From Plumapathes pennacea (Eukaryota; Cnidaria; Anthozoa; Antipatharia; Myriopathidae), in contig OZ038462.1 of the NCBI GenBank assembly GCA_964036295.1, forward strand, positions 16,683,264 to 16,747,263: DNA of 64,000 nt, given 5' to 3'. Below are positions 42,816 to 63,962 of this stretch, one piece after another. A program made the position numbers and the translations under genes. Under the pieces are notes generated by a model. The model had not been told where the DNA came from. It saw only the letters and a list, made by a program, of their open reading frames with translations, and ran no database searches. Within the stretch, counting starts at the first letter, position 1. The number at the start of each line of letters is the position of its first letter.

Positions 42816-45800
42816 ATGCTGCCAAGTCGTAAAATCCTCGTTCTGTCTTTGACCACATTTTCAGTGGCACTGGATCTTTATTTTCCTCGTCAGGGACGCT
42901 TTTTCGCGTCAGCTGGGTGGACAAATTTTGCACTTCACCAAGACATCATGGCAACTTCGACGTGTGGAGTTGGTAGACCGGACGCATTCTGCTTACTCGA
43001 CAATTATACGAAGTGCGAAGATTGTAATATAACTTGTCCGTTTGGGCAAGTATTTCCGTATAGATTTGTGAATCTTATTGCAGAAGGAAATCTTCACGAG
43101 GTAAGAAATTAAACCAGGGTGTTTTCCTTAATTTTACAGTTATGCTTTGATTGCTGAAATTTAATATAATTTGCCACATGGTGATAAAAAAAATGCTTTT
43201 TCGACATTCGCATCATTTGACATTGTGTTGGATACGCACAGCGTTTCTGAATGACGTCATGTTTATCTGTTGATTCTTATCATTTTCATTTATCAGTCAG
43301 ATACTAAATGTGATTAAACACCAATTAGCGTACTAAAAAGATAACACCATGAAAATTTTTTTACAGCCTCCTGCCTAGCCAGAAGATAGGAAAAGTGCAG
43401 TTGTTTTTGATCAATTGAATACATGCAACGCACCACCAGAAGCGCACGTATTATGACAAGCTGACACTTTGGTGAATTAATACAGATAAAATAGAATTAA
43501 ATTAGCGGCGAACGATTATTCTAAATTCTATAGCAATTAAAAAGGCTCAACTCTTAACAGCAAAGCATTTTTCCTGAGTCTTTTGATAGTGGACACTGGC
43601 CTTTTAAACTTTTATTAGTGCGTAGTCATTATTGCTTTCTCGCACATTTGTTTCCAGGCAAGCCTTGTTAACTCCTCTTGTACAGACGGAGTTGGAGCTA
43701 ATGACTCAGCAATCCGCTTTAGTACTGCGAGTAGCTATGTGTCTGTACCTGCTGACGCAGTTATTTATGAGGAATGGACTTTTATTACTTGGATCAAACA
43801 AAAATCAGGAAACAGGGGGTAAGTTCAAAGCTAATTATTGTAATTATAATGTGTCCCCTGATTTGTAGGACATATGTGCGCGGCTACAAAAACTGAGACT
43901 TTCATAAAGTTTTCGATTGTTGATTGATTAAATTTTACAAGGAGTTGGTATTTAAGTATTAGCATACCTGAACAGGAAATATAGACGAAATAGTCCGGCT
44001 TAAAGAATGTGCCCTAAACCCAGTCCTTGATCCTCCATTTTTGAGGCCCCCGCAAATCGAAAGATCCGACTCGTTTAAGTAGAAAATTTAACTTTTGACC
44101 TAAAAGTGCAACTTACCTATTTTTTATTTGATTTATTAATTTTTTTTAATGTGCACCAAATTTTACACATTTCTAGATGAGAAAAATAGAACGTTGAATT
44201 TGCTGCGAAGGCCTAGTATAACGACTGACTAGTACAGTGGAACCCCGTTAATACGGCCACCATCGGGACATTAAAATCTGGCCGTATTAACGGGATTTTC
44301 AGATAAGAAAATGACTGGGCTTTGTTCTGCGGGACAAAAAATAGTGGCCGTAATAACGAGGTGGCCGTAAGGCGGGGTTCCACTGTAAATCAACGAGGGA
44401 TTGAACAGGCAGTGGAACAGGCCGTTTGCGAGATCCCTATTGCCTCTGCTTCAAAACGAGGCCTTGTGCGAAACTTTTTCTGTGAAACTTAGCTGGTATC
44501 ACCTGCTTATTCATTTTCATGCAACTCAAGCCCATTTCCACAAGAGAGCTTTCGCACTAGGTCTCGTTTTGAGACAGCAGGCATCTCTGAATGGCATATA
44601 GACCAGTTTTTCAAACTTGCAGGCAACATACTCTTTCACTCCCAAGTTCAAAATGCAGATTCTCCAAACTTTTTAAGAGGGTAATGTGTGAGTAGTGTAA
44701 TGGGAATTGATAGGTTAATCAGCTATCAACTGAGCAAGGTATCAAAAGTTCTCTTCACTGTATGATTTATTTGTGCTGCCGAAACTGAAGAAGAAAATTG
44801 ATCACTCTTGGGAGAGAAAGGGTTAAGCTTGACGGACCACAACGTTTGACAGGAGTGTCGTAGAAAAAGGCTTAAAATCTCAAGATAGCCGCGTCCTAAC
44901 TCAAAAAAGAGCGCAACGTAAAGCAAAAATATATGCCCGCGCAACCCTGAGAAACTGGTCCAGTGATAATGTTAAAGGTCTCTCTCGTCAAATATATCCT
45001 GTGTTTTTGTGTTTATATCTGGAAAGGCTTGCATCTCCTATTTTGCAAATGTAAGAATTATTGATACTTAGAGTTATTGCGAAGACATTATGAATAGAGC
45101 ATCAATTCTTTTTCTAAAAATCATACTGTGCTGCGTAGATCCAGATGTATCTGAAATCACGAATGCTAGAATCATGTCTTGTCCTATGCCTTGAGTTAAG
45201 TTCTCGATTAATTAATTAGTTTCTGATCTTTGATCTATTTGCTCCACTGCAGATATGTATTCAGCAAGACAAATAAGAACACATCCCAGCTACGTCTCCT
45301 GGCCGACGACTCTGTTCATGAACTCACGCTTAAATTCCGGAATGCAAATACTAATGTTACCACCACGCTTGTTAGAGCTGTGAACATTAGTTTGAGTGAC
45401 AATAGATGCCATCACGTGGCCGTCACGTGTTATGGCTCAAGCGTTCACATGTTTGTCGATGGCGAGTTTGTCGGACGAGAATCCTCGGACGGTGATTTGG
45501 AATGTAGTGGCGTTTTGTTGCTCGGCGGTGGTCATGATTCCAACGAGTCTTTCTTCTATGAAGGTACTAAGCTCTTATACCTCGGCGTTTTGTCCACAAT
45601 GTAGTTAAAACAACATGATGTCAACAGTGCCCAATAATATTATTAGGAATATCTATTTATTTACTATTTTAGTCAGGACCTCTTTTAATGGCACCTTTTG
45701 GTGATGGGAGAATCTTATGACATCGCGCTATCTGACTTAAAGTTTACCCTACAAAATGGAGCTTTCCAAGAGGTCTACATATTTCCTTTTCACTAATTGC

Positions 45801-63800: not shown

Positions 63801-63962
63801 TGCGGGTAAATGAGCCATGCAGGTCTTTTCGAGTTGATGTCAGCGGAGACAATCACACTTTGACAAACTTGAGACCTTACAGTAATTATAGCGTGAATAT
63901 TGAAACCAAGAGTCTGCCGTTAAGGAGCACAACCTGGGAAACTGTTCGCACTGGGGAAGCAG
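42816..63962 (+). CDS. Giant TMEM132-cadherin-dockerin adhesion protein, partial
   Basis: Nine phase-consistent exons: 42816-43100, 43658-43818, 45253-45563, 46085-46933, 47590-48188, 49942-50189, 50697-50973, 51512-56543, 58557-63962; 4,389 residues so far. A GTAAAT donor at 63963 shows that the gene continues beyond the window. Order: signal peptide (1-18), Cys-rich start (to about 95), LamG-like (about 96-270), usherin-like laminin N-terminal domain (287-485), one cadherin-like repeat (505-610), TMEM132-type ectodomain with cohesin-like end (620-1747), furin-like sites (1754-1776), dockerin-like (1787-1864), unknown domain (1865-2020), eight cadherin repeats (2024-2869), second TMEM132/cohesin unit (2870-4005), furin-like sites (4011-4028), dockerin-like (4037-4124), unknown domain again, FN3-like start. 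Many N-glycosylation sequons mark it as extracellular. No membrane segment lies in the window. No single known protein has this order; cell or matrix adhesion is inferred. Confidence 0.85.
44235..44385. mobile_element. MITE, 151 bp, CAGTGGAACCCCG ends, TA flanks
   Basis: CAGTGGAACCCCGTTAATAC at the left and GGGGTTCCACTG at the right, flanked by TA (44233-44234 and 44386-44387). The interior repeats GGCCGTATTAACGGG/GTGGCCGTAATAACGAGG. In intron 2 of the giant gene. Best preserved member of the CAGTNGAACCCC group here. Confidence 0.8.
44629..44826. repeat. Intron MITE, TTTCACTCCCAAG family
   Basis: Starts CTCTTTCACTCCCAAGTTC, ends CTCTTGGGAGAGAAAGGGTTAA. Inverse ends; giant-gene intron 2. Confidence 0.7.
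47093..47301. repeat. Intron MITE, TTAACCCTTTCAC family, full length
   Basis: TTAACCCTTTCACCCCCAA on the left and TTGGGAGTGAAAGGGTTAA on the right are inverse ends, and TTAA stands at both termini. It is the most complete copy of the family, in giant-gene intron 4. A partial copy follows at about 47361-47480. Confidence 0.75.
48225..48462. mobile_element. MITE with GTTCACACCAA inverted ends
   Basis: CGCTGTTCACACCAACTAAAC at the left and its inverse GTTTAAGCATTGGTGTGAACG at the right; the interior alternates TTTAAACAGGTTT-like palindromes. In giant-gene intron 5. Confidence 0.65.
48680..48860. repeat. Degenerate copy of the TTTCACTCC family
   Basis: Shares CAATTTCTCACCAGAAACATATACAGTATG and CACTACATCACTCGTGCAG blocks with the other copies; ends GGAATGAAAGGGTG. 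In giant-gene intron 5. Confidence 0.5.
49015..49205. repeat. Copy of the TTTCACTCC intron family
   Basis: CGTTAACTCACAC start, CAGATTCGCTCGACCTTTTAAG block, end CACTCTTAGGAGTGAAAAGAG. In giant-gene intron 5. Confidence 0.55.
49271..49580. mobile_element. TIR element with 24-bp perfect ends
   Basis: TTAATAACATGCATACAATA at the left is repeated exactly in inverse at 49557-49580 (24 bp matched). The interior holds three tandem copies of an AGTGCAGAAATGTGAAATTA-like unit (about 49339-49405). Giant-gene intron 5. Confidence 0.7.
49584..49744. repeat. Foldback palindrome, 161 bp
   Basis: GTAATCACATGATTTCTCGTG to GCACTCGAAATCATGCGATTAC: two arms of about 70 bp in inverse orientation around a GCGGCGC centre. 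It abuts the TIR element to its left. Giant-gene intron 5. Confidence 0.75.
49786..49924. repeat. (ATA)n trinucleotide microsatellite
   Basis: About 45 AAT/ATA units with a short AAC interruption, ending 17 bp before the exon 6 boundary at 49942, within the splice acceptor region of the giant gene. Confidence 0.9.
50203..50380. repeat. Copy of the TTTCACTCC intron family
   Basis: CCTTTTCACTCCCAAGTTCAGG start, AAGCCAAGTTCTCCTTACTG block, degenerate end. Giant-gene intron 6, next to the exon 6 donor. Confidence 0.55.
54041..54109 (+). other. Two furin-like sites between cohesin and dockerin 1
   Basis: RRRR at residues 1754-1757 and RRRR at 1773-1776, only 16 residues apart, fit the R-X-K/R-R furin consensus. 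They sit in a charged linker just before the Cys-containing start of the dockerin-like domain. Confidence 0.65.
54140..54375 (+). other. Dockerin-like domain 1
   Basis: Residues 1787-1864. CKKC start, then two dockerin-type calcium loops: D1798 [11 protein letters not shown] with ligands at positions 1, 3, 5, 9 and 12, and D1840 [11 protein letters not shown] with 1, 3, 5, 9 and 12, each followed by a helix ([20 protein letters not shown]). This is the duplicated F-hand layout of type I dockerins. Spacing between the loops (about 40 residues) is longer than in most bacterial dockerins. Confidence 0.8.
56788..56982. repeat. (AT)n microsatellite, about 194 bp
   Basis: About 97 uninterrupted AT units in intron 8 of the giant gene, immediately before a foldback element. 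The length may be assembly-limited. Confidence 0.95.
56985..57173. repeat. Foldback palindrome, 189 bp
   Basis: AACAAATAAACCAGCTTCAAG at the left and CTTGAAGCTGGTTTATTTGTT at the right, with the outer 46 bp matching exactly in inverse and the inner arms imperfectly. Adjacent to the AT microsatellite. Confidence 0.8.
57174..58556. other. Rest of giant-gene intron 8
   Basis: No exon seen. Holds repeated GTGGTTTATA/TATAAACCAC palindromic words (about 58013-58075) and an AT microsatellite (58117-58143). Confidence 0.6.
59401..62823 (+). other. TMEM132 module 2 with cohesin-like domain
   Basis: Lies entirely within the last exon in the window. It repeats the order of module 1: N-terminal Ig-like part, [59 protein letters not shown], a Cys soon after, Ig-like strands, then a cohesin-like domain opening [20 protein letters not shown] with [10 protein letters not shown]. 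The start of the cohesin-like part aligns closely with module 1 (ACNL-PDV-D-D-G---G-PL). Module 1 is spread over four exons while module 2 has none of those introns. Confidence 0.75.
62825..62881 (+). other. Two furin-like sites before dockerin 2
   Basis: RSRR/S (4011-4014) and RQKR/S (4025-4028), both perfect R-X-K/R-R sites followed by Ser, in the same place relative to cohesin and dockerin as in cassette 1. Conservation of the position in both cassettes argues that cleavage matters. Confidence 0.7.
62905..63165 (+). other. Dockerin-like domain 2
   Basis: Residues about 4037-4124. CSTPPCSVC start, loop 1 D4050 [11 protein letters not shown] (ligands 1, 3, 5, 9, 12), helix IQFTLTYIA, loop 2 D4097 [11 protein letters not shown] (1, 3, 5, 9, 12), helix [11 protein letters not shown]. 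The second loop is a textbook EF-hand-like loop. All calcium ligands are intact. Confidence 0.82.

Follow-up and report, generated by a model that had tools for sequence, protein, structure and literature searches.

Notch and the adhesion G-protein-coupled receptors (GPCRs) are receptors that are cut yet stay joined. In usherin, a laminin G-like (LamG) domain precedes a laminin N-terminal (LamNT) domain, followed by laminin epidermal growth factor (EGF) repeats, fibronectin type III (FN3) domains and a membrane helix at the end; the cadherin lefftyrin carries a cytoplasmic tyrosine phosphatase domain. The cadherin families lefftyrin, coherin and hedgling contain all five TMEM132 domains, arranged in the same order, as identified in choanoflagellate and sponge proteins (PMC6030884). 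PMC5097364 restates the ancestry of these families, and according to PMC4942974 sponges have usherin orthologues. Hearing loss and panic disorder have been linked to TMEM132 genes, whose molecular functions are poorly understood, and bacterial cohesin-dockerin pairs rupture at forces >120 pN (PMC6030884, the latter as cited there). Here we describe a gene of the antipatharian Plumapathes pennacea in a stretch of 64,000 nucleotides, hereafter the window (assembly GCA_964036295.1, contig OZ038462.1, positions 16,683,264 to 16,747,263). In this gene, TMEM132 units alternate with cadherins behind an usherin-like start, and furin motifs lie between a cohesin and a dockerin-like domain in each unit. 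We propose, with a probability of roughly 45%, that it encodes a furin-cut giant adhesion receptor that would be held together by its own cohesin-dockerin bonds.

Nine exons of the gene lie in the window, between positions 42816 and 63962, and are listed here in window coordinates with E values of Pfam profiles.

42816..43100, plus strand: exon 1, start codon, signal peptide-like start and Cys-rich N-terminus, with an in-frame stop upstream at 42765
43658..43818, plus strand: exon 2, LamG-like domain begins
45253..45563, plus strand: exon 3, LamG-like domain
46085..46933, plus strand: exon 4, end of the LamG-like domain, LamNT domain (~46276-46776), first cadherin begins
47590..48188, plus strand: exon 5, remainder of the first cadherin, then unit 1 with the opening stretch of its conserved region (CR); Cadherin 5e-7
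49942..50189, plus strand: exon 6, unit 1, end of the CR and beginning of the first (TMEM132-type) cohesin; TMEM132_3rd 7.8e-4
50697..50973, plus strand: exon 7, first cohesin of unit 1
51512..56543, plus strand: exon 8, unit 1 from the end of the first cohesin through BIG1-3, second cohesin, furin motifs, dockerin and X domain, then cadherins 1-5 and part of 6
58557..63962, plus strand: exon 9, remainder of cadherin 6, cadherins 7-8, all of unit 2 and the first FN3-like domain

The first-pass annotation of this DNA had joined nine exons in phase into one protein of over 4,380 residues; indeed, conceptual joining gives 4,389 residues with 0 stops, and the introns between all nine exons are GT-AG throughout. 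The giant exons 8 (5,032 bases) and 9 (5,406 bases) are open solely in the coding frame, the other two frames holding 99 and 125 stops in exon 8 and 119 and 111 in exon 9. Domains interrupted by introns also score better when joined. The sixth cadherin (EC6), across exons 8 and 9, reaches 76.3 bits, as against 26.4 and 38.1 bits for its pieces (profile positions 3-38 and 40-92); LamG_3 across exons 2-4 reaches 58.5 bits, as against 33.5 for the best single piece, the other two pieces giving no match; and the first cadherin across exons 4 and 5 reaches 37.7 bits, as against 34.5 for the larger piece, the smaller giving no match. Long AT and TAA-type simple repeats occur in the introns of the gene, at ~56790-56982 and ~49790-49925.

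Relatives were sought with exon 8 and exon 9 separately, the best ~8,000 candidates being scored in each search. Exon 9 retrieved at least 15 proteins, 11 of them spanning the whole query at 37-59% identity, and exon 8 at least 22, of which 21 align over 97-100% with identities of 43-61%. Many of the exon-8 relatives have a greater length (~2,090 to 2,480 residues), and the two inspected carry additional cadherins. These relatives bear on the possibility that two or more genes, or a pseudogene, were wrongly joined, for which it can be said that the model was predicted from DNA alone and that a 2.0 kb intron containing simple repeats separates the two giant exons. However, this intron splits EC6 exactly, and because the split domain scores better joined, exons 8 and 9 belong to one gene. 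Moreover, the two inspected exon-8 relatives terminate at the same point as exon 8 ('...FTIVSG' and '...FSIIDGE'), and three exon-8/exon-9 relative pairs are on contigs of equal size (121,689; 1,172,847; 567,541 bases), which suggests, from the equal reported sizes only, that the members of each pair share a contig. Finally, predicted proteins of ~5,000 residues carry the same alternation within a single chain. Given the open joined frame, the junction-spanning scores and these long relatives, we rejected a wrong join as highly improbable; the sequence supports the nine-exon model as one gene in which TMEM132 units alternate with cadherins.

The earlier exons thus stand, whereas their end at 63962 is not the end of the gene: a donor at 63963 leads 1.2 kb beyond through two more predicted exons, found in 40 kb examined from position 63001 onward (numbered L001).

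63668..63962, plus strand: first FN3-like domain, fn3 0.023 only
64351-64638 (L001:1351-1638), plus strand: predicted exon 10, second FN3 domain, fn3 7e-13 on the joined tail
~L001:1916-2226 (acceptor 64916 or an alternative such as 64835), plus strand: predicted exon 11, membrane helix, tail and stop

No other stretch of the protein is as hydrophobic as the one in exon 11 (mean 3.07 over 19 residues, as against 2.17 for the second strongest), after which comes a predicted tail of 67 residues. Over its ~4,588 residues, the complete predicted protein carries 98 N-glycosylation motifs and a single likely membrane helix.

Profile searches of the joined protein, which the first-pass annotation had suggested as a check, matched TMEM132, cadherin, LamG and LamNT. 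At the N-terminus, Pfam gives Laminin_N at 4.2e-35 and Laminin_G_3 at 9.7e-15, and the LamNT domain of exon 4 matches netrin and laminin chains in the PDB. The Pfam search gave no EGF family match at E 0.01 after LamNT, where a cadherin comes next. Hence, of the 'usherin start' seen at first, the order LamG then LamNT holds and identity with usherin does not: judged by its domains, the gene shares its N-terminus with usherin and is not itself an usherin. Cadherin stretches were found six times in exon 8 and three times in exon 9, the sixth domain being common to both, and once more before unit 1; read off the joined protein, this makes eight cadherins between the units, the number counted earlier, and nine in all. 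The parts of the two units and their surroundings are the following.

51644..53624, plus strand: three BIG domains of unit 1, Pfam 1.6e-18, 5.5e-10 and 4.5e-5 (last below cut-off)
53627..54038, plus strand: second cohesin of unit 1, PF00963 below cut-off on the segment at 0.0015; homologous to the unit 2 cohesin
54041..54109, plus strand: linker of unit 1, two furin motifs RRRR (54041-54052 and 54098-54109)
54170..54374, plus strand: dockerin-like domain of unit 1, Ca-loop residues conserved; Dockerin_1 0.62
54375..54848, plus strand: X domain of unit 1, Ig-like sandwich through homology to unit 2
54851..59417, plus strand: eight cadherins between the units, with intron 56544-58556 inside cadherin 6
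59420..60365, plus strand: CR and first cohesin of unit 2, by homology to unit 1; no convincing Pfam match of their own
60389..62375, plus strand: three BIG domains of unit 2, Pfam 1.4e-21, 1.3e-13 and 0.0016 (last below cut-off)
62372..62819, plus strand: second cohesin of unit 2, homologous to that of unit 1
62825..62878, plus strand: linker of unit 2, furin motifs RSRR (62825-62836) and RQKR (62867-62878)
62939..63158, plus strand: dockerin-like domain of unit 2, Dockerin_1 0.0018, below cut-off; helices in structure models
63159..63659, plus strand: X domain of unit 2, Ig-like beta sandwich in the predicted model, after the dockerin

The BIG domains were recognized with PF16070, PF23486 and PF23487 (TMEM132 4th-6th), and the 4th and 5th lie above the Pfam cut-off in both units, which bears out the two TMEM132-like units proposed from first inspection; the 6th lies below it in both. 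The two units are homologous over their entire length (E 1e-92). In the aligned relatives (22 exon-8 and 12 exon-9 rows, the first of each set being the window's own sequence), the 4th and 5th domains match at E 0.01 in 22/22 and 12/12 rows, and the 6th in 15/22 and 11/12. There are two cohesin-like domains per unit, one of TMEM132 type ahead of the BIG domains and another ahead of the dockerin. The former, TMEM132_3rd, is weakly matched in unit 1, with no Pfam match in unit 2, and is matched in 4 of the 12 exon-9 rows; TMEM132_2nd was matched only in one distant relative (1.6e-4, below cut-off). Both fold and profile mark the cohesin as such. Thus, of the 'cohesin-dockerin cassettes' named earlier, the cohesins stand, two per unit, while the dockerins stay below the Pfam cut-off; in the relative P0014, Dockerin_1 exceeds it.

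We defined a linker as the 80 residues ahead of each dockerin loop found by patterns, which yielded 70 linkers from 50 of 51 family proteins (the patterns found no dockerin loop in P0016), two of the linkers being the window's own. The furin motif RX[KR]R is present in 59 of the 70, in two or more copies in 44. Elsewhere in the same proteins it occurs 8 times in 131,577 residues, or 0.005 expected per linker, so that linkers with the motif are ~170 times as common as this rate predicts, a descriptive ratio, the rows being related, with many near copies and no independent sample. A narrower pattern gave 58/68 linkers, as against 10 occurrences in 131,737 residues elsewhere. All 34 rows of the window's type (12 exon-9 and 22 exon-8) carry RX[KR]R, and so do the distant relatives P0014, P0039, P0051 and P0052; the last (5299 residues) has furin motifs in three cohesin-dockerin linkers, together with a TNFR_c6-type domain, and no cadherin among its precomputed domains. 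In the 22 rows, residues of the cohesin and of both dockerin loops are invariant or nearly so, as are the linker arginines. These linkers are predicted furin sites, at which furin may act. A search of open-licence literature (titles and abstract openings) returned no report that places a furin site between the cohesin and the dockerin of animal cadherins, and within that literature the furin-flanked cohesin-dockerin pair is the new part of the finding.

The same linkers might simply be flexible, exposed basic loops in an ordinary long adhesion protein that is never cut, with cohesin and dockerin as old structural leftovers. Consistent with this, the unit 2 linker has a predicted local distance difference test score (pLDDT) <50 at model residues 163-184, as expected of a flexible loop, the dockerin profile scores are weak, and the membrane-nearest units of many distant relatives have no furin motif. 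We nevertheless find an uncut protein doubtful, since the arginines are nearly invariant at fixed spots while most other linker positions vary, and since linkers with RX[KR]R are ~170 times as common as predicted. As for the units without a motif, these are P0015, P0017, the third units of P0042-P0049 (8) and the second unit of P0048, and all except the last have only a predicted membrane helix downstream and no further unit. In these distant relatives the membrane-nearest unit lacks the motif and outer units mostly have it, whereas the window's kin differ: its absence nearest the membrane is no general rule, for window unit 2, 12/12 exon-9 rows and the last unit of P0052 keep it.

Under the furin-cut, bond-held reading, one gene would encode a giant TMEM132-cadherin adhesion receptor that crosses the membrane once and leaves the secretory route as a single chain. 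A furin-type protease would cut each unit between the second cohesin and the dockerin, and each dockerin would remain bound to, or swap onto, a cohesin of the same protein, so that the fragments stay together. The fragments would form a rope, linked by cohesin-dockerin clasps that need calcium and may bear load and release or exchange, with LamG/LamNT and cadherins at the distal end binding matrix or neighbours. The gene model, the domain order, the predicted membrane anchor, the conservation and the placing of the furin motifs come from computation; cutting, docking within the chain, load bearing and the ligands are what we infer, cutting from the motif and binding from the fold.

Cutting could also be real and serve another end, freeing the partners for binding in trans, to another molecule or cell, or shedding the outer part. 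The linker evidence (RX[KR]R in 59/70) would be the same, each unit offers two cohesin-like domains for one dockerin, and a dockerin-bearing module is present elsewhere in the genome. We consider this unlikely: for 67 of the 70 linkers, the same chain carries a cohesin start motif 100-280 residues ahead of the dockerin loop, which favours binding within the chain, and no partner protein was identified.

Several observations weigh against a receptor cut by furin and held by its own bonds. The evidence is all DNA sequence, and furin is implicated by its motif, which 11 of the 70 linkers lack. Both dockerins of the window score under the Pfam cut-off, and Dockerin_1 at E 0.01 is reached by just 6/12 exon-9 and 2/22 exon-8 rows. 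A model of cohesin, linker, dockerin and X domain has a predicted template modelling score (pTM) of 0.42, uninformative on docking. Lastly, the best Dockerin_1 match in the window's assembly (290,015,204 bases, 24 contigs) is at C1:3633917-3634114, in an open frame of 981 residues that ends a cadherin-bearing stretch; this related module has a dockerin (6.6e-7), a cohesin and X domain by alignment only, and no furin motif, so that docking and cutting need not go together. It is nonetheless possible, and we put it forward tentatively, that the cohesin-dockerin pair, familiar mainly from the cellulosomes of bacteria, is a built-in joint in animals and their closest kin, at which the receptor would be cut by furin and held by the bond once per unit, an arrangement that would predate the divergence of the cassette carriers. 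If so, receptors that are cut and rejoined would include a new kind, built as a chain whose segments can detach or be exchanged.

A search with five distant relatives found 16 proteins, including the query member P0014. TMEM132 profiles are present in P0041-P0052, while P0053-P0055 are other cadherins. The predicted proteins of ~5,000 residues, P0042-P0049, show the same TMEM132-cadherin alternation (in P0043, three TMEM132 4th domains and three cadherin stretches by Pfam), and 8/8 have a strong hydrophobic stretch near the end. In a midpoint-rooted tree of 33 unit segments from 23 hand-chosen proteins, window unit 1, the exon-8 relatives and the first units of the ~5,000-residue proteins form one group (support 100/99) that excludes the unit-2 rows; several long branches (P0017, P0015, P0039, P0052, P0051 and others) are unsure, the deeper order is unsettled and the join of two P0052 rows is possibly false. 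From this grouping, the cassette duplication is, on sequence grounds, older than the split from the carriers of ~5,000-residue proteins, and the two-unit layout predates it. We therefore rejected a recent chimera, which the word 'chimeric' used at first would suggest.

In the whole genome, PF16070 matched only the two units of this gene (5 candidates scored; intron-broken domains could be missed). The giant may thus be the form that TMEM132 takes in this animal, and vertebrates may keep, in their small TMEM132 proteins, trimmed remains of such giants. The placing of furin motifs between cohesin and dockerin also bears on whether animal adhesion receptors, too, are joined by a bond that ranks with the strongest known from bacteria.

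A second giant region, C1:3632696-3657000 on the minus strand, comprises cadherin exons followed by one that holds the module just described, namely a part resembling BIG3 (by eye), cohesin (by alignment), dockerin, X domain and membrane helix; exons for G8 and a CEMIP beta-helix, which may belong to the same gene, are found upstream on that strand. Open frames noticed elsewhere in the window are on the minus strand.

6466-7776, minus strand: open frame of a KDM8-like gene, with a Cupin_8 domain and the ARM repeats of the KDM8 N-terminus
24010-25559, minus strand: two exon-like frames matching an RsmB/F methyltransferase profile, presumably an NSUN-type gene
36653-39169, minus strand: 838-residue open frame that matches the FANCAA (Fanconi anemia-associated) profile at 3.4e-20

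Compared with known systems, the gene is closest to coherin, lefftyrin and hedgling, which have cadherins plus the five TMEM132 domains in the same order, cohesin included (PMC6030884). Indeed, cadherins, cohesin and the TMEM132 set stand here in one chain, as coherins are defined there. Compared by description only, the LamG-LamNT start and the FN3 pair set the present gene apart. No hedgehog or phosphatase family is among the Pfam matches of this protein; for the tyrosine phosphatase domain, a lefftyrin trait, Pfam found none, and the predicted tail has just 67 residues. Of the 'distinct adhesion-receptor class' claimed at first, the alternation of TMEM132 and cadherins is therefore real and the novelty is not, PMC6030884 already having TMEM132 domains in cadherin families: the kind is known, and the gene adds an usherin-like start.

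Like vertebrate TMEM132A-E, the protein has BIG profiles in both units, a putative CR-cohesin part ahead of these and one membrane helix; unlike the vertebrate proteins, it has two units, cadherins, a second cohesin, a dockerin-like part and LamNT. Regular expressions for WIRS and PP1 RVxF motifs found none in the predicted 67-residue tail, and a canonical TMEM132 was set aside for this absence. Usherin shares LamG-like then LamNT at the N-terminus, and FN3 and a membrane helix at the end, whereas the gene has no row of laminin EGF repeats, two FN3 domains in place of a long array, and cadherins and TMEM132 units instead; a canonical usherin was set aside with no EGF row in the Pfam matches. 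In contrast to the bacterial cellulosome, cohesin and dockerin are here in one animal chain with furin motifs between them, their binding being putative. Finally, as in Notch and the adhesion GPCRs, we propose that the precursor would be cut and its halves remain bound, the joint in this case being the cohesin-dockerin pair.

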